A DNA stretch of 35,016 nucleotides, taken from positions 1-35,016 of the IMG/VR virus record IMGVR_UViG_3300021511_000020; one strand, written 5' to 3'. The translations under genes were made by a program, and so were the position numbers. The notes under the pieces are model-generated. The model was not told where the DNA came from. It did not search any database and saw nothing but the letters and a program-made list of their open reading frames with translations. The stretch comes from a virus. Position 1 is the first letter of the stretch, and each line of letters starts with the position of its first letter. This document shows positions 2,293 to 12,198 of the stretch, in pieces.

Positions 2293-2341
2293 GGCCGTTC
2301 CGGTCATCGTCCTGATTACAGCTGGAGAGAGAGAGAGGCCC

Positions 2342-3475
2342 ATGAGCCTATGTCCAAAATGTGGAAATAATGCACTAGAGCTGTTTACCAGCATCGAGTG
2401 CAGCAACCCCGCGTGCGAATTGTACGCAGAGTTGCCATCAACCGGACCCGGGGTTACAGCGAACCCAGAAAGCTTCGGCAAGGCGCCGAAGGGGGTATAT
2501 GGGGTATATGGGGTATATGGCGTAGAGGCGCCGAGGCCGTCTTACGGCGTGTTTGCTGACACTGTCAAAAGCATCAAGTGTGAAATTGCTTTCCCACCGG
2601 CCCTGGTGGGGCTGACTCGACAGAGGTTTGTTGGTGAGCAGTACCGATTCCCGGTTGCCAACAGCTTCCCCGGTCGCAGCGCCACGTTTGCCGTCGCTCA
2701 GGCACTTGCCCGTGCGCCGGCACCAAGGTGGGTGATAGATAAGAGGAGCAAGTGCCATTCGGCGCTGGAGATCACCGGACAATTGGCTTGCGTTGTGAGT
2801 GATCGCCTGTCGAGCATCCTGCAGAGTTTCGCAAAAAGGTCCGCCCACGACCATGGCATGGCGATCCTTGATTCATTCCTTGGCGTTGGTGACTATGCGG
2901 ATGGTGTTGGCATTGACAAGTGGGTGCCGGCGAAGGCGCCCACGCCGCGTGACACCCTGTGGGGCATTGATAGGTCGGTAGACCCTCGCCGCCTCGCAGG
3001 GATTCGGGTTGATGCGAGTGCGCGTTCGTTTGATGATGACATTATCACGGCGGCCTCGCGGATTGCCCGCGAGGGCGGGTCGCCGGATACCGCTATTACT
3101 TACGGAGATCACGCGCCACGGCTTGTTACCACTGTCGCTGGCCCGGTAACTGTCCATTTTTACAAACCCGAGAAACGCTTCGACACCTTTGTGTTTGACT
3201 CGAGTTCGTGGAGCTTGTTAACGGTTGGTAGCACCCTCCGGGGCCGACGCGCAAGCGTTCCTACTGACGCATATGAGGTTATGCGCACCACGTATTGGCA
3301 GTTTGCGTGTGTCAATCCTGGCCATAGCGCCAGGATTCTGAAGAAGGCACCCGCGAAAAACTTTTTTGCGCCTGGTCGTGAGGGTGGCTACTTCAATCTC
3401 GTGGGCGGGAAGCCTGGCCATAATGCGAAGCCGTCCGGTCTTGCCGCGTGGCTTCCGAAGAGCACCCCGTGGTGA
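2342..3475 (+). CDS. zinc-ribbon protein fused to a capsid-protein paralogue
   Basis: A 377-residue protein. Residues 4-25 form a four-cysteine zinc ribbon (C4, C7, C20, C25). Residues 51-60 are a GVY repeat linker. Residues about 68-333 align with the phage's own major capsid protein (9553-10758). The best stretch, residues 205-254 against capsid 241-290, is about 25/50 identical, with shared IAREGG and GxDRxVD. A second match covers the capsid C-terminus (DAYE, NxPG). The capsid insertion domain (capsid residues about 141-225) is nearly absent. The C-terminus carries GLAAWLP, also found in the capsid at 228-234. A GA-rich ribosome site precedes ATG 2342. It could be a vertex protein like T4 gp24, a minor shell protein, or a capsid-derived factor with a new role. 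The last two options are inference. Confidence 0.75.
   Translation: MSLCPKCGNNALELFTSIECSNPACELYAELPSTGPGVTANPESFGKAPKGVYGVYGVYGVEAPRPSYGVFADTVKSIKCEIAFPPALVGLTRQRFVGEQYRFPVANSFPGRSATFAVAQALARAPAPRWVIDKRSKCHSALEITGQLACVVSDRLSSILQSFAKRSAHDHGMAILDSFLGVGDYADGVGIDKWVPAKAPTPRDTLWGIDRSVDPRRLAGIRVDASARSFDDDIITAASRIAREGGSPDTAITYGDHAPRLVTTVAGPVTVHFYKPEKRFDTFVFDSSSWSLLTVGSTLRGRRASVPTDAYEVMRTTYWQFACVNPGHSARILKKAPAKNFFAPGREGGYFNLVGGKPGHNAKPSGLAAWLPKSTPW
2492..2518 (+). repeat. three tandem 9-bp repeats
   Basis: Three exact copies of GGGGTATAT, followed by a degenerate copy. They encode GVY repeats in the linker between the zinc ribbon and the capsid-like body. Copy number could change by slippage and alter linker length in steps of three residues. 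Confidence 0.9.
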
Positions 3476-3756
3476 CCGGAGACGAGAATTGCCCAGAGAA
3501 GACGATGTGGACGTTGGACGCGTCAAAGATGTTGACTCCTTCTCCGACATGCGGCTACGACGAGACCGTGGAGCGGGCCAAGAGGGAGATGAAAGAGCTT
3601 ATGGGGAAGACCAACTTCCAGATGCTGGCGTTCGGGAAGTTGGCACTGAGGGTAACCCCAGAAGGGCGATCAGTCAGCCCTCTCCCCCCATACGGCGCAC
3701 GAGAGGAAAAGAAAGGCGAGAAGACCCCCAAAGGGAGGCTGCGAGGAAGGCGGTAG
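3472..3756 (+). CDS. hypothetical basic small protein
   Basis: A 94-residue protein starting at a GTG that overlaps the preceding stop (GTGA), a coupling arrangement typical of this block. Residues about 37-65 look helical and amphipathic. The last 25 residues are rich in Lys, Arg and Gly. It is not recognised. The 3' part is overlapped in another frame by the HNH-like gene. Either the two are separate overlapping genes, or the basic tail is joined to the HNH-like domain by a -1 frameshift. I found no canonical slippery heptamer in the overlap. Confidence 0.4.
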   Translation: MTGDENCPEKTMWTLDASKMLTPSPTCGYDETVERAKREMKELMGKTNFQMLAFGKLALRVTPEGRSVSPLPPYGAREEKKGEKTPKGRLRGRR

Positions 3757-3944
3757 CAATCGCAATTAAGAGGGGTCTGCTGACCCCATTACCGTGTCAG
3801 GCCAGAACGCTTGTGGGAAGGAATATGGTTAAGTGCGGGAAGACTCCAACACAGGCTCACCACTGGACGTACCACCCGAAGTGCTGGCTCGACGTAATTT
3901 GGCTTTGTAGGGAGCACCATGACAGGAAGCGATACGACAAATAG
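3549..3944 (+). CDS. HNH-like zinc-binding protein (start uncertain)
   Basis: The C-terminal part is a typical small phage HNH-like zinc module. A basic helix (REAARKAV) leads into AIKRGLL, a first Cys, a second Cys, QAHHW, then WLCREHH, which supply zinc ligands and the conserved histidine pair. Relatives are usually 80-120 residues and are annotated as HNH endonucleases or structural zinc proteins. The start is not settled. ATG 3549 has no Shine-Dalgarno. ATG 3825 has GGGAAGGA upstream but would remove the conserved basic helix. The gene overlaps the previous one by about 200 bases in another frame. It ends 26 bases inside the next gene. Confidence 0.55.
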   Translation: MRLRRDRGAGQEGDERAYGEDQLPDAGVREVGTEGNPRRAISQPSPPIRRTRGKERREDPQREAARKAVAIAIKRGLLTPLPCQARTLVGRNMVKCGKTPTQAHHWTYHPKCWLDVIWLCREHHDRKRYDK

Positions 3945-4233: not shown

Positions 4234-4629
4234 TTGCCAAAGTGCGCATTCGTAAAGCCTGACGGTTCCCCCTGCGGCGCATTCGCAGGGGCGGACTCGC
4301 CGTTTTGCTTCATGCATGACCCGGACAGGGCTAAGCAGGCAGCTAAGGCTCGCAAGAGGGGCGGCTCCAGGTATGATGCGCAGATGGGGGGCGAGATAAG
4401 GCCCCCGCAGACGCTTGAGGAGCTTGCTGACATGATTTCTCGCACAACCAAGCTGGTTTGGGACGGAAAGTGCGACACAAAGCGGGCAGAGGCCATTGTC
4501 AAGCTTTGCAAGATGCAGATGGCAGTGATTAAGCAGGCCCGTGAAGACGGGCCGCCGGAAGACGACATTGCGACAATGGGCTTTGAGGAATTAAAAACAG
4601 AGGCCAGGAGGCTTTTGGGTGAGGATTAG
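4234..4629 (+). CDS. zinc-knuckle protein, possible small terminase
   Basis: A 131-residue protein starting at a TTG directly after the previous stop. Residues 4-28 hold CAFVKPDGSPC ... FCFMH, a three-cysteine/one-histidine zinc knuckle. A basic segment (KQAAKARKRGG) and a long helical region follow, with LEELADMISR and a second pair of helices. Proteins with this CxxxxxDGxxC...FCxxH knuckle are widespread and poorly named. Its position just ahead of the GNAT and TerL genes, with a basic N-terminus and helical oligomerisation-like core, makes it the best small-terminase candidate here. No other gene in the window offers a better one. The role is inference. Confidence 0.45.
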   Translation: MPKCAFVKPDGSPCGAFAGADSPFCFMHDPDRAKQAAKARKRGGSRYDAQMGGEIRPPQTLEELADMISRTTKLVWDGKCDTKRAEAIVKLCKMQMAVIKQAREDGPPEDDIATMGFEELKTEARRLLGED

Positions 4630-5050
4630 GCCATTTAATGGGCGGGTGGACATTGCTTGCGTGTTCAACACATGGTGCAACCACATCAGGCGCTCTCCTC
4701 CGTTTGATAGAATGGACCCGGAGGAATTTAGGCGGCATAAACGCACTGTCCTTGAGGCGCTCGTCGCAAGGGACGAGACAATTGTTGCATGCCATGAGGA
4801 CCACGAAGACCAGATTTTCGGTTACCTTTGCGGATATCCGGAGAGGAACGTGGTTCACTTTGTCTTCGTCAAGGAATGGGCCAGGCGCAGAGCAATTGCA
4901 ACTGCCCTTCTGAAAAGCATGTTTCCATGGTTTGGGAAGAGGAAAATTTACTATACGCATCAGACAAAGGCATCAAAATACCTTGAGCCCAAATGGATGA
5001 TGCAGTACAATCCGTACTTGGTGAAAAAATGCGAAGAATCATTGCTATAA
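4619..5050 (+). CDS. GNAT-family acetyltransferase-like protein
   Basis: A 143-residue protein with a GTG start inside the end of the previous gene. The segment HFVFVKEWARRRAIATALL near residues 80-100 matches GNAT motif A, in which a beta strand leads into the acetyl-CoA-binding RxxxIA turn and helix. A preceding strand (IFGYLCGY) is typical of the GNAT core. Small GNAT-like proteins commonly sit next to terminase genes in phages. The substrate is unknown. The C-terminal YYTHQTKASKYLEPKWM is also typical of this phage subgroup. Confidence 0.65.
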   Translation: MRIRPFNGRVDIACVFNTWCNHIRRSPPFDRMDPEEFRRHKRTVLEALVARDETIVACHEDHEDQIFGYLCGYPERNVVHFVFVKEWARRRAIATALLKSMFPWFGKRKIYYTHQTKASKYLEPKWMMQYNPYLVKKCEESLL

Positions 5051-5307
5051 GGTTTCTTGCTGGATTTCGCGGCACGAGGGTTATCGCCGCAGACCGCCAC
5101 ACTGTAATTACGCATGAGCTGAGAAGCGTGTGCGGCATTGACACCCCCGGCATTCAGGTTGTGGATGGTGGTAATGTTTACTGGGCCCCCATTTCATCGA
5201 TTGGGTATCTGAAGGAAGAGCCATTTGCCGAGGGGGCCGACGGGGAGGAAGACCTTGAGTTTGAGCCGCTCTCGGGCGGTGCTGAGGGAGTATCGTCGGA
5301 GGAGTAG
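5029..5307 (+). CDS. hypothetical small protein before terminase
   Basis: A 92-residue protein. The first 60 residues look like a small beta-rich domain (RRIIAIRFLAG, ... VIAADRHTVITHEL, ... GNVYWAPISSIGYL). The last 30 are strongly acidic. It overlaps the GNAT gene by 22 bases and TerL by about 53 bases, so the three are probably translated as a unit. An upstream ATG at 4993 would overlap the GNAT gene more deeply and is less likely. Function is not recognised; a packaging accessory role is suggested only by position. Confidence 0.5.
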   Translation: MRRIIAIRFLAGFRGTRVIAADRHTVITHELRSVCGIDTPGIQVVDGGNVYWAPISSIGYLKEEPFAEGADGEEDLEFEPLSGGAEGVSSEE

Positions 5308-6673
5308 CTACTTCAAAGACCTGTTCGGGAAGTTTCCGCAACAGGCAACGGCAGTTCTCGACCAGGCCCCACTAAAAACCTACCGAACGCCACGGCGTGC
5401 TGGGAAGACTACAGCCGCCGTTGGCGGTGACATCATTTGGGACGCCATTCAGCACGCAGACAGGGGCCATCAATACGCCTTCGTCGCCCTGACGCGCCAC
5501 GCTGCCCGTGGCATCACCTGGAACATGATGAAGAAGCTGGACCGGGAATACGGCCTGGGTGCCAGGTTTCTCGAGGGACAGTTGCGCGTTGTGCTGCCAG
5601 GCGGCACTGAGATAACTCTGCACGGCGCCGACAAGGCAGGTTGGGCCGATAGGCTTCTTGGGCATGAGTTCAGAAAGGTTATCATTGATGAAGCAGGATT
5701 CTACTCTATTGATCTCAAAAAGTTTATTGAGGAACTTGAACCGACTGTTATCGGGACAGGCGGAAGTATTGTCATGTGCTCAACGCCTGGGCACATCCCT
5801 CGGGGCCACTATTACGACGTTACGACAGGGAAGGTCGGCGGATGGTCGAACCATCGATGGTCTTCTCTTGACAATCCATACATCCGTGCGAAAGTGCTTG
5901 CGACTATTGCAAGACACCGAAAAGAGGATCCAGACATTGAGAATAGGGCCTGGTACCGACGTAACTTCTTGGGAGAGTGGGTAACCGAGTTTGAGAACAA
6001 GGTGTATAGATTCGACCTTGACAAAAACACATGGAATCAAGACCTTCCAGGCAAAAGTGAATACATGTTCGTGCTTGGCGTTGACCTCGGCTGGCACGAC
6101 GCCACGGCATTTTGTGTCATTGGTTGGCACCCTCACCGCCCAGAGCTTGTTGTGTTTGAGTCGCATCGCCAGCAAGAGATGCTGATCAGCGATGTCGCCA
6201 AAACTGTCAAGATGTACGAGGACTTCTATCCGGGGCTGATTATGGTTGGTGATCCTGCCCACAGGCAGGCGTTTGAGGAACTCAGGCGCAGGTGGAAACT
6301 GCCAATCAGGGAGGCAGAGAAGACATCTAAGGACGACTGGCAGGCGCTCATTAACACCGACCTTTCCAATGAGATCATCAAGGTCGTAGACCCCGATTCC
6401 AGCGTGCTTGCAGAAGAGTGGATGGAGCTGGCCTGGTACCAGCGACCAGACGGCACCCTGGTAGAGGCACCACGGCAGCCCAACGACGTAGCCGACGCCT
6501 TCCTGTACGCGTACCACATCGCGTACCACTACCGCCACACCGAAGCCGTGATAGAGCCCGTGCGGGCATCCAAGGAGTACTACGACGCGCAAGTAGAGCG
6601 CATGCTGGAGGAAGCTGAGAGAAATTGGGAGAGGGACAACGCCCTCAACGATATGTCATGGCTCAAAAAATAG
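5255..6673 (+). CDS. terL: terminase large subunit
   Basis: A 472-residue DNA-packaging motor. The ATPase half has Walker A-like RTPRRAGKTT (44-53), Walker B VIIDEA (143-147, Glu146 catalytic) and the coupling motif CSTPG (175-179). The RNase H-like nuclease half shows Asp277 in GVDLGW, Asp333 in VGDPA and the pair in NDVADAF (411-414). It cuts concatemers and drives DNA into the prohead through the portal. I chose TTG 5255 because GGAGG lies six bases upstream. The in-frame TTG at 5225 lacks such a site. Confidence 0.95.
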   Translation: MSLSRSRAVLREYRRRSSYFKDLFGKFPQQATAVLDQAPLKTYRTPRRAGKTTAAVGGDIIWDAIQHADRGHQYAFVALTRHAARGITWNMMKKLDREYGLGARFLEGQLRVVLPGGTEITLHGADKAGWADRLLGHEFRKVIIDEAGFYSIDLKKFIEELEPTVIGTGGSIVMCSTPGHIPRGHYYDVTTGKVGGWSNHRWSSLDNPYIRAKVLATIARHRKEDPDIENRAWYRRNFLGEWVTEFENKVYRFDLDKNTWNQDLPGKSEYMFVLGVDLGWHDATAFCVIGWHPHRPELVVFESHRQQEMLISDVAKTVKMYEDFYPGLIMVGDPAHRQAFEELRRRWKLPIREAEKTSKDDWQALINTDLSNEIIKVVDPDSSVLAEEWMELAWYQRPDGTLVEAPRQPNDVADAFLYAYHIAYHYRHTEAVIEPVRASKEYYDAQVERMLEEAERNWERDNALNDMSWLKK

Positions 6674-6710: not shown

Positions 6711-8561
6711 ATGGATACGCGCGACAGATGGTGGTCAAAACGGGCGAACGGTAACAGACACGACGACATGAAGCTGTCTGTTGACGAGCTTTCCGACGAC
6801 CAAGAGAGAATCAAGACGCAGTACAGGAACTGGCTAAACCTATACACCAATAGGACTTACTCCAGCTTCAAGCCAGGCGAGGCGCAGTATGCGCTACACA
6901 TGCTTGAGGAGACCCACGGGGTGAAGCTCAACGTGGTCCAGTCCTGTATTGATACACTCGCATCCAAAATCGCCGCGTCCCGCCCCCGCCCGCAGTTTCT
7001 GTCGTCCGACGGCGACTGGAGCATGAAGCAGAAATCCAAGAAGCTTGAGAAGTTCGTAGACGGCATTTTTCATGAGTGTAAAATCTACGACGAGTCTCGT
7101 AAGGTTTTCATTGACGCAGCAGTGTTTGGCACCGGATTTCTGAAGATTTTCCGCTGTGATGACAGGGTGAAGCTTGAGCGCGTTTTTCCAGCAGAGATTC
7201 TGGTAGATGAACAGAGCGCCCTTGTCTCAGACCCAAGGACCATGTACCAAGAGAAGTTTGTATCGCTTGAGGTACTCGTTGACCTGTATCCCGGGGAGTC
7301 AAAGTCACTGATGCGGATGACAGGCGAACACACCGTGGAGGGCGGCAAGGCCATCGAGACCGACCTGGTGCGCGTCATCGAGGGATGGCACCTGAAGTCC
7401 GGCAAGAAGGCCAAGGACGGTCGGCACACTATTTGCGTTGACGGGATTACGCTTTTTGATGAGGAGTACGACCACGAGTACTTCCCGTTTGTTGAACTTA
7501 GGTGGACAAAGCAGCCGTTTGGTTGGTTGGGACAGGGGCTCTCCGAGCAGCTGGCAGGGATTCAGAAAGAAATTGACAAGCTGGTTCGGCGTATCCAAGA
7601 GGCCATGCACCTTTTTTCTGTGGCAAAGGTTGTTATTGAAAAGGATTCTATTGAGAAGTCCAAACTCAGAAACGTCATCGGGGACATCCTTGAGTATAAG
7701 CCGGGCGCCGCCCCGCCGAAGGTTGTTATGCCATCGGCAATCTCAAACGAGGTGTTCAGACACCTCTGGGAATTGTACGGAAAGGCATACGAGGTAAGCG
7801 GCATTTCTCAGATGTCTGCCGCGTCGGTGAAGCCGGCTGGAGTTGAGGCTGGCATTGCCATGCAAACGCTCCTTGACATTGAGACACAGCGGTTTGCGCT
7901 TTTGTCGAAGGATTGGGAAGAGTTGTTCTGCCAGGCAGCTAGAATTGTAGTTGACCTGGCCAAGGAAATCAACGGCGACAAGGAGTTCAAGAGCAAGTGG
8001 GTTGCCAAGAGCTACGCAGAGACCATCCCGTGGAACGAAGTGGATATGGACAAAGACAGGTACGTCTTGAAGGTTTATCCTGCCAATCTCCTTCCGCAGA
8101 CTCCGTATGGCCGTTTGGCCGCCGTAGAGAATCTGATGAGAATTGGGCTGATACAGGACCCGAAGGAAGCGATGGCGCTCCTGGATTACCCAGACCTTGA
8201 GAAGCACCAAACGCTAATGGCGGCCGATATCGATGACATCGACATGGTCATTGAGGAGATGCTGGCCAACGAGAACTACATTGAGCCACAGCCATACCAG
8301 AATCTGCAAATGGCGATGTCAAGAGTTAACAGCGCCCTGCTGAGGGCGCGACTGGACAGGGCCCCGGAAGAGCGTCTTGCGCTACTTGAGCAGTGGCTCG
8401 AGGATGCGGAACGTCTGGTCGAAGTGCAAGAGGACGAACTTGTCCAAACGCAACAGCTCATGGCTCAGCAACAGGCCATGGCAGAACAAATGCAGGCTGG
8501 TCCACCGCCAGGAGACCAGGCCGGGCCATCACCGGCAGAACAAGCTAATTTGCCGGCATAA
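6711..8561 (+). CDS. portal protein
   Basis: A 616-residue protein between TerL and the scaffold, the classic portal position and size for short-tailed phages. The N-terminal half has the portal-like helical/beta pattern, including KLNVVQSCIDTLASKIA, AVFGTGFLKI and ERVFPAEILVDE, which is a common pattern in podoviral portals. The long C-terminal segment (about residues 520-590) is helical, Gln-rich and coiled-coil-like, as expected for the crown or barrel. It forms the dodecameric ring at one vertex, through which DNA enters and leaves. No Shine-Dalgarno precedes the ATG; a TATAAT box lies eight bases upstream. Confidence 0.9.
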   Translation: MDTRDRWWSKRANGNRHDDMKLSVDELSDDQERIKTQYRNWLNLYTNRTYSSFKPGEAQYALHMLEETHGVKLNVVQSCIDTLASKIAASRPRPQFLSSDGDWSMKQKSKKLEKFVDGIFHECKIYDESRKVFIDAAVFGTGFLKIFRCDDRVKLERVFPAEILVDEQSALVSDPRTMYQEKFVSLEVLVDLYPGESKSLMRMTGEHTVEGGKAIETDLVRVIEGWHLKSGKKAKDGRHTICVDGITLFDEEYDHEYFPFVELRWTKQPFGWLGQGLSEQLAGIQKEIDKLVRRIQEAMHLFSVAKVVIEKDSIEKSKLRNVIGDILEYKPGAAPPKVVMPSAISNEVFRHLWELYGKAYEVSGISQMSAASVKPAGVEAGIAMQTLLDIETQRFALLSKDWEELFCQAARIVVDLAKEINGDKEFKSKWVAKSYAETIPWNEVDMDKDRYVLKVYPANLLPQTPYGRLAAVENLMRIGLIQDPKEAMALLDYPDLEKHQTLMAADIDDIDMVIEEMLANENYIEPQPYQNLQMAMSRVNSALLRARLDRAPEERLALLEQWLEDAERLVEVQEDELVQTQQLMAQQQAMAEQMQAGPPPGDQAGPSPAEQANLPA

Positions 8562-8569
8562 GGTGTTAG

Positions 8570-9454
8570 ATGCCAGAAAAGATTAAAGAGGTAGTCGATG
8601 ATGCGGTTCAGGCCGAGCCCTCCGATGCTGACGTGCTCGCCGTGCTCAAGTCCGGCAAGGTCCCTGAAGGTGAAGGGCAACCGGCTGACAGGGCGGGAAC
8701 GCAGGATCCGACACCGGAAGGGGATGACAAGCCTGATAGCTTCGAGGCGAACGCGAGGCTTGAGCGACAGAATCGCGAGTTGCGGGACAAGCTCAAGAAG
8801 CTTGATGAACTTCAGGAAGCCGCCAAGGAGGGCCCAATGCAGGCTCTGCAAAAACTTGGCATTGACCCCCTCGACCTTCTTGACTCGATGGATGACGCAA
8901 CGCCGTCCCCACCAGAGGAGGGGGTCCAGACCGAACTTGAAAAGCTCCGGGAGGAGCAGAACCGACTGAAGGCAGAGCTTGAGAGAAGCAAGTATGATGG
9001 CTATGTGTCAAAGCGCAAGGATGACCTGATGTCTAAGATGTCAGAGCTTAAGGAAGACCATCCGTTTGCGCATATGGCTGCTGCCTCAGACGAATCCTTT
9101 CTTGACAACGTCCTTGAGTATGCGGGGCAGTACTACAAGCAAAACAACGAGCTTATCGCAGACGCCGACCTCGTGAAGGCCGCCGATGGGTTCATCGTCG
9201 ATATGTTTTACAAGCAGCTTAACGATATTTTGAGCGTTCCCGCCGGAGTGCAGAAGGTCAAGGAGGCCATCTCGAAACTGGAGGGACATTCCTCTGACGC
9301 GCCAACGCAGAGCACGCAGCAGAAGCCAGCACCGACACTGAGTAATGATATGAACGCCGACCCGGCCAGGGGCAAGCGTGATCTCACCGACGAGGAATCA
9401 GAGGCTGAGTTCATTCGCCTCATGCAGAAGGACGGGTGGGTCGGAGACGACTAA
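8570..9454 (+). CDS. capsid scaffolding protein
   Basis: A 294-residue, acidic, highly charged protein between portal and capsid. It has coiled-coil stretches at about residues 61-84 and 119-142, a Pro/Glu/Asp-rich N-terminus and a disordered Thr/Gln-rich region before the C-terminus. Composition, length and position fit the scaffolding protein that templates prohead assembly and leaves or is degraded before packaging. No protease motif is present, so it is not an obvious protease-scaffold fusion. AAGGTG lies upstream of ATG 8570. Confidence 0.8.
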   Translation: MPEKIKEVVDDAVQAEPSDADVLAVLKSGKVPEGEGQPADRAGTQDPTPEGDDKPDSFEANARLERQNRELRDKLKKLDELQEAAKEGPMQALQKLGIDPLDLLDSMDDATPSPPEEGVQTELEKLREEQNRLKAELERSKYDGYVSKRKDDLMSKMSELKEDHPFAHMAAASDESFLDNVLEYAGQYYKQNNELIADADLVKAADGFIVDMFYKQLNDILSVPAGVQKVKEAISKLEGHSSDAPTQSTQQKPAPTLSNDMNADPARGKRDLTDEESEAEFIRLMQKDGWVGDD

Positions 9455-9552
9455 CAACTGTAGCTGGACCCGAGAAGGCTCTTAAGGCCAACCCCCCAGA
9501 TCAAGCCAGCCACTGGGACCCCTGAACGGCATAAAGCTGAAAGAGGTACATC
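9455..9552. other. 98-bp gap between scaffold and capsid genes
   Basis: The longest gene-free stretch in the head block. I see no convincing promoter, terminator hairpin or small gene in it. It ends in AAAGAGG, the ribosome site of the capsid gene. It may act only as a leader that boosts capsid translation. Confidence 0.4.
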
Positions 9553-10758
9553 GTGGCAGCTCTTAATCCTACCACCTTTGCGTATGCACTGAAGACTCTC
9601 TATAGCGAGAGGAAGCTTCAGAATCTGGTTTACAAGAACAACCCCTGGTTCGCTATGGTTAGTAAGGACACTAACTTCAAGGGGGCCAACTTTGTCGAGG
9701 CCATGATTTATGGCCACACTGGCGCTCGGTCTGAGCAGTTCTCCACTGCTTTGGCCAACAAGGCCGCCAGTAAGGGTGTGGCGTTCACCATCACGCGGTC
9801 TCACGACTACGCGCTGGCGTCCATCGATACCGAGACCATCCTTGCCTCCAAGGGCAATGAGGCCGCGTTTCTTGCAGCCGTTAAGCGGGAGATGGACAGC
9901 GCAATCCATGCCGTCACCCGATCCATCGCCAAGGGTCTCTTTGGCAATGGCTGCGGTATCCTGGGAATCCAGGATGGTGCTGCCGCCGGTCTTGTGGTCA
10001 CCCTGTTGAACTCAGATGACGTCACCAACTTCGAGGTTGGTATGAGTGTCGTGCCCGCCGCCATGACCGGCGAGCTTGCAACCGGTGCCCCTGGCACCGC
10101 AGTCACCGTTGACGCTGTTGACCGTGACGCAGGCACCATCACGCTCTCTAGCGTGACTGGGTTCGATGACGCCGACGCCATCCTAGCCGAGGGCGACTAT
10201 GCGAGTGCCGCTGACCGGAAGATGATCTTCGGCCTTGCTGCGTGGCTTCCGTACACTGCGGAGTCTAGCGGTACCTTCTTCGGCGTTGACCGAACGGTTG
10301 ACGTGTCCCGCATGCAGGGACATCGCATCGACGGCTCTGCAATCGACGTTGACCAGGCGGTGTTGAAGATGGCCGTCCGGATCGCCCGCGAGGGTGGCCA
10401 TCCAGACTTCGCGATTCTCTCGTATGAGAAGTGGGAGGAGATGGTTGATGACCTTCGTGACAGCGTGCGCTACCAGCAGCACAAGGTTGGTGAGACCGGG
10501 TTCCAGAGCCTCTTGGTTCAGGGCCCGACTGGACCGATCTCGATTGTTGCTGATCAGAACTGCCCAAGCAATCGGTGCTACGTCCTGACCAAGGACACCT
10601 GGCGCTTCAGGAGCCTTGGGCCCGCTCCACAAATTCTGAACCTTGACGGGCTTCAGATGCTGCGGGAGTACAACGCGGACGCTTACGAGCTTCGTGTTGG
10701 CTTCTTCGGTAACCTGTGCTGCAACGCGCCTGGCTACAACGGCGTTCTCAAACTGTAA
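9553..10758 (+). CDS. major capsid protein (HK97-type, with insertion domain)
   Basis: A 401-residue protein starting at a GTG with AGAGG upstream. Residues about 10-135 look like the N-arm, E-loop and spine (FKGANFVEAMIYG; then AFLAAVKREMDSAIHAV as the spine helix). Residues about 141-225 form a beta-rich insertion (MSVVPAAMTG, TAVTVDAVDRDAGTITL). Residues 225-401 resemble the A/P-domain end (GVDRTVDVSRMQG, IAREGG, ILSYEKWEEM). Position after the scaffold and before a strong terminator agrees. A shorter paralogue without the insertion is encoded at 2342-3475. Structure is inferred from pattern, not modelled. Confidence 0.9.
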   Translation: MAALNPTTFAYALKTLYSERKLQNLVYKNNPWFAMVSKDTNFKGANFVEAMIYGHTGARSEQFSTALANKAASKGVAFTITRSHDYALASIDTETILASKGNEAAFLAAVKREMDSAIHAVTRSIAKGLFGNGCGILGIQDGAAAGLVVTLLNSDDVTNFEVGMSVVPAAMTGELATGAPGTAVTVDAVDRDAGTITLSSVTGFDDADAILAEGDYASAADRKMIFGLAAWLPYTAESSGTFFGVDRTVDVSRMQGHRIDGSAIDVDQAVLKMAVRIAREGGHPDFAILSYEKWEEMVDDLRDSVRYQQHKVGETGFQSLLVQGPTGPISIVADQNCPSNRCYVLTKDTWRFRSLGPAPQILNLDGLQMLREYNADAYELRVGFFGNLCCNAPGYNGVLKL

Positions 10759-10768
10759 CCCATGTCAG

Positions 10769-10802
10769 CCCCGGGGTGCATCAGCACCCCGGGGTATTTT
10801 TG
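10769..10802 (+). terminator. intrinsic terminator after capsid gene
   Basis: A perfect 11-bp stem (10769-10779 with 10784-10794) closed by an ATCA tetraloop and followed by TATTTTTG. The stem is almost pure G/C. It lies ten bases after the capsid stop. It is the only clear Rho-independent terminator I see in the window. Partial read-through would give capsid mRNA in excess over the downstream tail genes. Confidence 0.9.
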
Positions 10803-10810
10803 AGGCAAAT

Positions 10811-11491
10811 ATGGGCAATAAGAAGGCCGAGAAAGTCAAACGAGAAGTGGGAGACCCGGCGAAGGGCCAGTCTTTCAGCGTCATTGGCAAGATTCTCGAA
10901 TACATCAACGGGATCAGCGGGATCAGCCCCACGCCCGGGTGGAGGGAGCGGCTTGGCCCAACCACAAAGGAGTGGAACGACCACCAGCAGCGGGTCGCAG
11001 AGATGCTCGCCTGGCAGCGCGGTCCACAGTCAGAACCGCTTCCTGCGGCTCCACCGCCGATGCCAACCACATCACCTCTTCCCCCAACACCGCCGCCGGG
11101 CGAAATGCAAACAGTGCCGCTTCAGACTGGACCGAAGGAGGCCCCGCCAGAGGTGAGCCCCGGCAGGGCGGACATCCTTGCGCTAATGGAGGAGGAAGAG
11201 AAGCGGAGAAAGCGTCAGGCTCAGCTGGCAAAGCTTAATCGCGAGGAAATGGAGGCCGAGATGCGCAGCCAGAGCCCCGGCCCTCCCTCTGAGGCAATGG
11301 ATTACATGCCCCGGCCAGATGCGCCGGCCGCAGGACCCCCGTCGGAGGCCTGGGCCTATATGCCGCAACGGGGGCTATCCGCAGAACAGCAGGCAGCGAT
11401 GGCACCGGGCGCAGCCGTAAGCGGAATGGGCATCCCGCCGGCAACCGCAATCGCAGAAATGATTAAGCGGCTATGGATGGCAGGTAAGTAA
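10811..11491 (+). CDS. hypothetical Pro-rich structural protein
   Basis: A 226-residue protein just after the capsid terminator. A short N-terminal domain (residues 1-75) is followed by a Pro-rich linker (about 77-118), a charged helix (about 120-155) and two copies of GPPSEAxxYMP (157-167 and 175-185). The end is Ala/Met-rich with a final helix. It is not recognised. Position between capsid and adaptor, and the disordered composition, suggest a minor head or head-completion protein. The ATG at 10811 is chosen for the GAGG just upstream; the frame is open further upstream but would overlap the capsid gene. Confidence 0.6.
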   Translation: MGNKKAEKVKREVGDPAKGQSFSVIGKILEYINGISGISPTPGWRERLGPTTKEWNDHQQRVAEMLAWQRGPQSEPLPAAPPPMPTTSPLPPTPPPGEMQTVPLQTGPKEAPPEVSPGRADILALMEEEEKRRKRQAQLAKLNREEMEAEMRSQSPGPPSEAMDYMPRPDAPAAGPPSEAWAYMPQRGLSAEQQAAMAPGAAVSGMGIPPATAIAEMIKRLWMAGK

Positions 11492-12198
11492 TGGCACGAA
11501 CGCGCAGAAGGGCTGCCCTCAGGCAGGAAATTAGGGACAGGGGCGACCTGCAGGCTCCGCGTCATGACCAGGACTACCTTGACAGGATGCTTGACCAGGG
11601 CCACGCAGAGTTTCACAGAATGATTGTTTCGGTGTGTCCCGACCAGTTCCTTGAGCTAAAGACTTATGACATTCCGGCAGACCTTATTGGTGCCGACGGC
11701 GATGAGCTTGCCCTGCCCACTTCCCCAGACGCAGAGTTCTACAAAGAGAATGGTGTTGACGTGAGCGAGGGCGGCAGGTGGTATCCGTTGCGCAGGCATC
11801 GACACTCTGAGCGCAACCAACTGCAGGACACTGGCGTCGAGAAGATGGTTACGAAGTATCGAGTTATGGGAAACGTGCTCAAGCTTCGCCCAACTCCATC
11901 CTGGACGAGCCAGGTCAGATTGTGGTATGTCCCTGCAGCAGCTCCATTCTCGGATGACGCTACCAGCTTTGACGGGATTAATGGGTACGACGAGTACCTC
12001 ATTCTGTGGTGCGTTATCAGGGGGAAAATGCGCGACAGGTATGACGCCACAGAGTTTGAGCGTCAGTTGATGGAGCTTAAGTTTCGCATTATTGAGGAGT
12101 ATTCGGACAGGGGAGAGTCGGAGCCGGACCGGGTGAGAGACGTTGACAGAGAGTTTATTAACAATGTTTTTGAGTTAGGCCTTCCGGGGGCCCCATGA
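11491..12198 (+). CDS. head-tail adaptor protein
   Basis: A 235-residue protein overlapping the previous stop (TAATG). The middle has TKYRVMGNVLKLRPTPSWTS, then VRLWYVPAAAPF, then YDEYLILWCVIRGKMRDR, a pattern shared by adaptor or neck proteins of short-tailed phages that sit below the portal ring. The flanking segments are helical (HAEFHRMIVSV; FERQLMELKFRIIEE). Order portal, scaffold, capsid, then adaptor and nozzle supports this. The strong Arg-rich start (ARTRRRAALRQ) is unusual. Confidence 0.65.
   Translation: MARTRRRAALRQEIRDRGDLQAPRHDQDYLDRMLDQGHAEFHRMIVSVCPDQFLELKTYDIPADLIGADGDELALPTSPDAEFYKENGVDVSEGGRWYPLRRHRHSERNQLQDTGVEKMVTKYRVMGNVLKLRPTPSWTSQVRLWYVPAAAPFSDDATSFDGINGYDEYLILWCVIRGKMRDRYDATEFERQLMELKFRIIEEYSDRGESEPDRVRDVDREFINNVFELGLPGAP

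Follow-up and report, generated by a model that had tools for sequence, protein, structure and literature searches.

A strongly diverged SU10-type capsid-protein homologue, stripped of several domains, among the accessory genes of a short-tailed phage

What is a second capsid-type gene doing among the accessory genes of a phage that has a major capsid protein (MCP) of its own? The question is raised by PAR, an open frame of 377 amino acids (positions 2342..3475, + strand) in a window of 35,016 bases, which is the whole stretch of DNA analyzed here and a linear IMG/VR virus record. The window phage is short-tailed, with a P22/SU10-type portal protein (6711..8561, +; Pfam P22_portal), an SU10-type adaptor (11491-12198; PF24175), and an MCP of the SU10/podovirus type (9553..10758, +). 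This resident MCP was identified by NCBIfam NF033394 (E = 5.5e-29) and PHROG phrog_9953 (major head protein), and its AlphaFold2 (AF2) model, with a pLDDT of 66, had the SU10 capsid as its best Foldseek match in the PDB (E = 5.8e-7). BLASTP against this protein and a profile of the C-terminal half of the capsid both recognized PAR, and we conclude that it is homologous to SU10-type MCPs, though far diverged from them and stripped of several domains.

Relatives of the phage share a block of genes in the order GNAT - TerL - portal - MCP - adaptor - g12583. The first of these, a GNAT acetyltransferase gene (4619..5050, +), was present in 41 relative loci, and the gene for the terminase large subunit (TerL; 5225..6673, +; PHROG) in 82. 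GNAT lies upstream of the terminase, with 28-38% identity in the relatives inspected; gene order was the same wherever we checked it, as if GNAT belonged to the head/packaging block. Scans with TerL and with the RNA ligase found no closer relatives of the window phage. Upstream of GNAT the window encodes a protease, an RNA ligase, two small ORFs, PAR, an HNH protein, and a TerS-like protein, none of which has a counterpart in related MCP-bearing loci; PAR therefore sits in a lineage-specific island. The distance between the PAR and MCP genes is 6.1 kb, in agreement with the first-pass annotation, which had placed the gene among accessory genes about 6 kb from the capsid gene. PAR is on the same strand as TerL, portal, and MCP, with no strong terminator in between; a strong hairpin resembling an intrinsic terminator (10768..10795, +; 12-pair stem with 10 GC, followed by a T-run) lies directly 3' of MCP. 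The PAR start codon is preceded by a purine-rich ribosome-binding stretch, GGAGAGAGAGAGAGGC (2324..2339, +), and the codon use of the gene (0.037; random synonymous codons score -0.105, and most of the phage's genes 0.04-0.16) resembles that of the other accessory genes of this phage.

The neighbors of PAR have features of their own. The protease (351-1028) is trypsin/HtrA-like, with a lipoprotein-like signal (LLAACALYACC), and its protease domain also matches the PADLOC RT-Protease_XI models, over the protease part only. The gene at 1025-1960 belongs to the RNA-ligase family (PF09414, phrog_548) and has no counterpart in related MCP-bearing contigs. Between it and PAR are two tiny ORFs (1944-2292), one hydrophobic and membrane-like, the other acidic and ending in a DEDSDDEDSDDE repeat, a 15-bp tandem at 2123-2158. 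Near the end of PAR, an HNH-endonuclease-like ORF (3366-3944) overlaps another plausible ORF (3448-3756) in a different frame.

The homology of PAR to MCP is real. Relative to the resident MCP, PAR gave a BLASTP E value of 1e-16, with 28% identity over 198 residues, and in tblastn searches against the MCPs of relatives the match reached 2e-19 and ran unbroken over residues 177-332 at 31-34%. The best-conserved capsid core (residues 183-253, GDY..GIDKWVP..GIDRSVDPRRLAGIRVD..RIAREGGSPD; 2888..3100, +) contains the best ungapped block of the profile alignment, with 23 of 46 residues identical (MCP 240-285, PAR 204-249), which bears out the earlier estimate that the best 50 or so residues are about half identical. 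On PAR 182-253, the C-half capsid profile scored 65 bits, as compared with 5.0 for the best of 5000 shuffles. An E-loop-like segment (residues 94-125, QRFVGEQYRFPV..GRSATF; 2621..2716, +) was matched weakly by the N-half profile, at 8-10 bits against 5.2 for the highest-scoring of 5000 shuffles, and a C-terminal capsid segment (residues 267-333; 3140..3340, +), recognized by tblastn and alignment and preceded by a shortened A domain, shows moderate homology to MCP. When separate capsid profiles were used, neither residues 149-182, the spine-helix region, nor residues 41-93 were significant on their own. The core had earlier been aligned with MCP over residues 68-333; the homology stands, while its extent is about 94-333 rather than 68-333 throughout, with a poorly conserved middle (126-181). 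Curated family models (NF033394 and SU10_MCP, among Pfam, PHROGs, and NCBIfam) did not match PAR.

What PAR has lost was read from an alignment with 21 MCPs. The MCP insertion domain (about residues 136-207; 9958..10173, +) is missing, as had been noted, and an insertion-domain profile run on PAR gave no match; N-arm and spine-helix profiles likewise gave none. Also mostly missing, by the alignment and AF2 secondary structure, are about 30 residues of the A domain, namely a helix and its adjoining strands (MCP residues 286-322, approximately; 10408..10518, +) that, on the usual division of the HK97 fold, belong to the axial domain. PAR has no equivalent of a loop near MCP 359-369 either. PAR thus does not present the full HK97 set of N-arm, E-loop, P domain, A domain, and insertion domain, and the losses of the N-arm and A domain go beyond those in the first-pass annotation. 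The AF2 model of PAR was of low confidence (pLDDT 39, pTM 0.34), and so the domain losses rest on the sequence alignment. Foldseek returned the SU10 and HK97 capsids as top matches of this model, a result that is compatible with the fold but partly circular because the alignment behind the model was made of MCPs.

We asked where such a gene came from. There are 31 positions at which the resident MCP and its closest relative (L001) have residues that are rare elsewhere in the family; PAR has this private residue at 2 of them and the family consensus at 13. Over alignable columns, PAR is up to about 40% identical to the MCPs of other phages, but only 30.5% identical to that of its own phage. We considered a recent duplication of the resident gene and rejected it, as only 2 of the 31 lineage-private residues are shared. 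The description of PAR as a rebuilt capsid homologue, without the insertion domain and with a zinc-ribbon-like front, is supported, but the implied copying from the phage's own MCP does not fit these figures. Since PAR is without the resident-private residues and is nearer to other MCPs, it may derive from another lineage of the MCP family by recombination, or from an old split. In the phylogenetic tree, the terminal branch of PAR (1.96) is far longer than any other (next longest, 0.74), its placement is subject to long-branch pull to the outgroup, and a clade of PAR, the resident MCP, and L001 was not rejected by the AU test (p = 0.42).

Despite this divergence, PAR looks constrained rather than decayed, because about two thirds of the near-invariant residues are kept: PAR agrees in 31 of the 46 columns for which conservation among other MCPs is 95% or higher. 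With a slightly different set of rows, 34 of 54 conserved columns were kept, versus 15 of 72 columns of 40-80% consensus (Fisher p = 2.6e-6). A pseudogene drifting freely would not favor conserved columns, and the preference argues that the fold is under constraint. This pattern points to a folded, selected protein, with the constraint read from one sequence, as no PAR ortholog was found.

Both ends of the protein are new. At the front is a zinc-ribbon-like module, CPKCG...CSNPAC (residues 4-25; 2351..2416, +), with the arrangement C4-x2-C7-x12-C20-x4-C25 and two CxxC-like knuckles. Pfam DUF1936, the zinc ribbon of Ta0289, matched it with an E value of 8e-4, which is below the curated cut-off, and PDB 1PVM matched weakly (E about 1); we describe it as a putative metal-binding module. 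A search for this zinc ribbon in phages gave chance-level matches only, of which three fell within or close to the zinc ribbons of topoisomerase III. The module is followed by a linker, GVYGVYGVYGV, encoded by a 9-bp tandem repeat (2492..2524, +; TRF, 3.7 copies, 95%). The zinc ribbon and GVY linker previously reported ahead of the core are thus both recognizable, the former through its cysteine pattern and the weak DUF1936 match.

At the other end, a tail of 44 residues (334-377; 3341..3472, +) is absent from all MCPs in the alignment. It includes the sequence GLAAWLP (3436..3457, +). In this form the resident MCP carries a G[LI]xxW[LVI]P motif found at the junction of the insertion and P domains of MCPs; the match between the tail and the resident MCP covers 7 of 7 residues and 20 of 22 bases (MCP 10230-10251). 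Since the corresponding position of PAR is already occupied by GIDKWVP, the tail motif is an additional copy. The match was noticed after the fact; none of 86 million sampled 22-mer pairs of the window genome had two or fewer mismatches, and none of 20,000 shuffles of the tail shared seven residues with MCP. These figures suggest that a short piece of the phage's MCP gene may have been copied into PAR, or that the GLAAWLP motif may have been selected.

We examined how widely such genes occur by gathering about 140 loci with MCPs of PAR's family, some of which overlap on the same contig; 47 of 142 have at least 7.2 kb upstream of MCP. Neither these loci nor about 100 whole records searched with PAR or capsid profiles contained a second MCP-like gene, other than the pieces of a split MCP gene in one relative (L136). 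That gene (9347-11350) is divided between two open stretches, 9347-10270 and 11021-11350, with some 750 bases between them; Rfam returned no intron match, and an unrecognized intron, an insertion, or a programmed event are possible explanations. Relatives of PAR itself were not detected in 2.9 million IMG/VR contigs at the search sensitivity used, in GTDB genome contigs, in GenBank phages, or in 397 genomes from a single bacterial family, chosen around the sole MAG match. Literature searches by term found no report of a domain-stripped paralog of a phage MCP.

We tentatively favor the view that PAR is an accessory protein that binds to, or co-assembles with, capsid subunits. It has kept the core of the peripheral domain, the E-loop segment, and the C-terminal strands, and has lost the N-arm, which would clamp neighbors, and the axial tip, which would close capsomers. 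In SU10, an annular loop at the axial tip forms the hexamer ring and the pentamer barrel (PMC9509320). With the N-arm and the A-domain tip gone, PAR is unlikely to build capsomers alone; it might instead occur in low copy among MCP subunits, either as an assembly accessory or as a minor head protein, where the zinc-ribbon front could supply a new binding surface. Against this proposal, PAR lies 6 kb away from the head genes, among accessory genes that no relative shares.

The same losses could be read otherwise. Lacking the axial tip and the N-arm, a subunit would be well suited to poisoning assembly, and PAR may be an interference factor that, by mimicking capsid protein, gets into the assembly of related competing phages or satellites and poisons it. 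This is rather unlikely in our estimation, even though PAR is encoded in an accessory island and is nearer to the MCPs of other phages (about 40%, against 30.5% for the resident MCP in alignable columns), and although Tab provides a precedent for a phage-encoded block of a rival's virion assembly (PMC10884400). The tail motif is specific to the resident MCP, and self-poisoning would have to be avoided; further, nearness to other MCPs may only reflect a fast-evolving resident lineage, given the AU p of 0.42. A more particular version, which we consider doubtful, is that a captured capsid-family gene became a capsid-targeting protein that joins and blocks the capsids of competing relatives, as a phage counterpart of Fv1. 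Close in probability to interference in general, and a shade lower, is that PAR is a relic with no selected function, left from a capsid gene that was acquired through recombination, then trimmed and joined to neighboring sequence. That PAR is a single instance among 2.9 million IMG/VR contigs at the sensitivity used would fit this origin, as would its very long branch, the low-complexity repeat in the linker, and a tail that looks patched together, and phages can carry recombined structural paralogs, such as the dual tubeA genes of PhiGT1 (PMC10386132). However, all 377 codons have stayed open although the sequence has diverged so far, retention favors the conserved columns (p = 2.6e-6), and the gene has a ribosome-binding stretch and genome-like codon use.

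Less probable than a relic, and only slightly better placed than the Fv1-like proposal, is a new use outside the virion, in which the HK97 core would serve for binding or as a scaffold and the zinc ribbon as the effector. The new front and tail, the loss of shell-building parts, and a position away from the head genes, where the neighbors encode an RNA ligase, a secreted-type protease, and an HNH nuclease, are all consistent with such a use, but the best-kept residues of PAR are the capsid family's own, and searches of Pfam, PHROGs, NCBIfam, and PADLOC revealed no catalytic or nucleic-acid-binding signature. The first-pass annotation had also raised the idea of a decoy that titrates host defenses sensing capsid protein. 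Such sensing is real, in that CapRel(SJ46) binds newly made MCP (PMC9712102); a decoy, however, should as a rule retain whichever surface of its own MCP is sensed, and PAR has strongly diverged from that MCP; a capsid-like protein could equally trigger the defense. We regard a CapRel-like decoy as very improbable. PADLOC reported no defense link for PAR. Just as poorly placed, and if anything lower, is the vertex (pentamer) protein like T4 gp24 that had been suggested. PAR is likewise a diverged MCP paralog, and in T4 the identity between gp23 and gp24 is only about 20% (PMC9958956), but the structure of gp24 is quite similar to that of gp23 (PMC9958956), while PAR lacks the insertion domain and part of the A domain and so does not have the complete HK97 architecture of a gp24-type paralog. 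Because the missing A-domain segment is the part that closes pentamers, a gp24-like role is disfavored; moreover, none of the relatives searched has such a second protein, and SU10 MCP alone makes both pentamers and hexamers.

If PAR is indeed so reduced, with new ends, it would show how far the HK97 fold can be cut down. More broadly, it would represent a novel class of minor head protein, or else a path by which a capsid protein becomes a regulator or a weapon; were the Fv1-like proposal true, a shell-incompetent HK97 core with a zinc-ribbon head would be akin to capsid-derived restriction factors. Second capsid-protein genes appear to be rare in short-tailed phages of this size (0 in about 140 related loci), and in T4 gp24, the most familiar case, the fold is retained in full.

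Comparison with known systems places PAR near several of them, and apart from each. Only if the interference reading is right would PAR resemble Tab (PMC10884400), in blocking a rival's virion assembly. Tab acts on tail assembly and targets the tape measure protein (PMC10884400). With the dual tubeA genes of PhiGT1 (PMC10386132), it has in common a second, highly divergent copy of a structural gene that is apparently not a recent duplication; both tubeA copies are tail-tube proteins, however, whereas PAR has lost domains of its family. T4 gp24 and PAR are each a second, strongly diverged MCP homologue in one phage. The full HK97 architecture, insertion domain included, is kept in gp24. The T4 protein is structurally close to gp23 (PMC9958956), whereas PAR is without the pentamer-closing parts. 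Encapsulins and PAR are both small HK97-fold proteins outside the ordinary capsid role, the fold being predicted in the case of PAR. PAR is set beside encapsulins by this general description, and its sequence match, in contrast, is to phage MCPs. In encapsulins the A domain is retained and can close capsomers, and genes for cargo accompany them. The nearest likeness in sequence is to the SU10-like/podovirus MCPs (NF033394, PF17236, phrog_9953), which have in common with PAR the E-loop segment, the C-terminal strands, and the P-domain block G..W.P...DRS.D..RL.G.R.D..REGG.PD; unlike those proteins, PAR is the second such gene in its genome, and carries a new front and a C-terminal tail.
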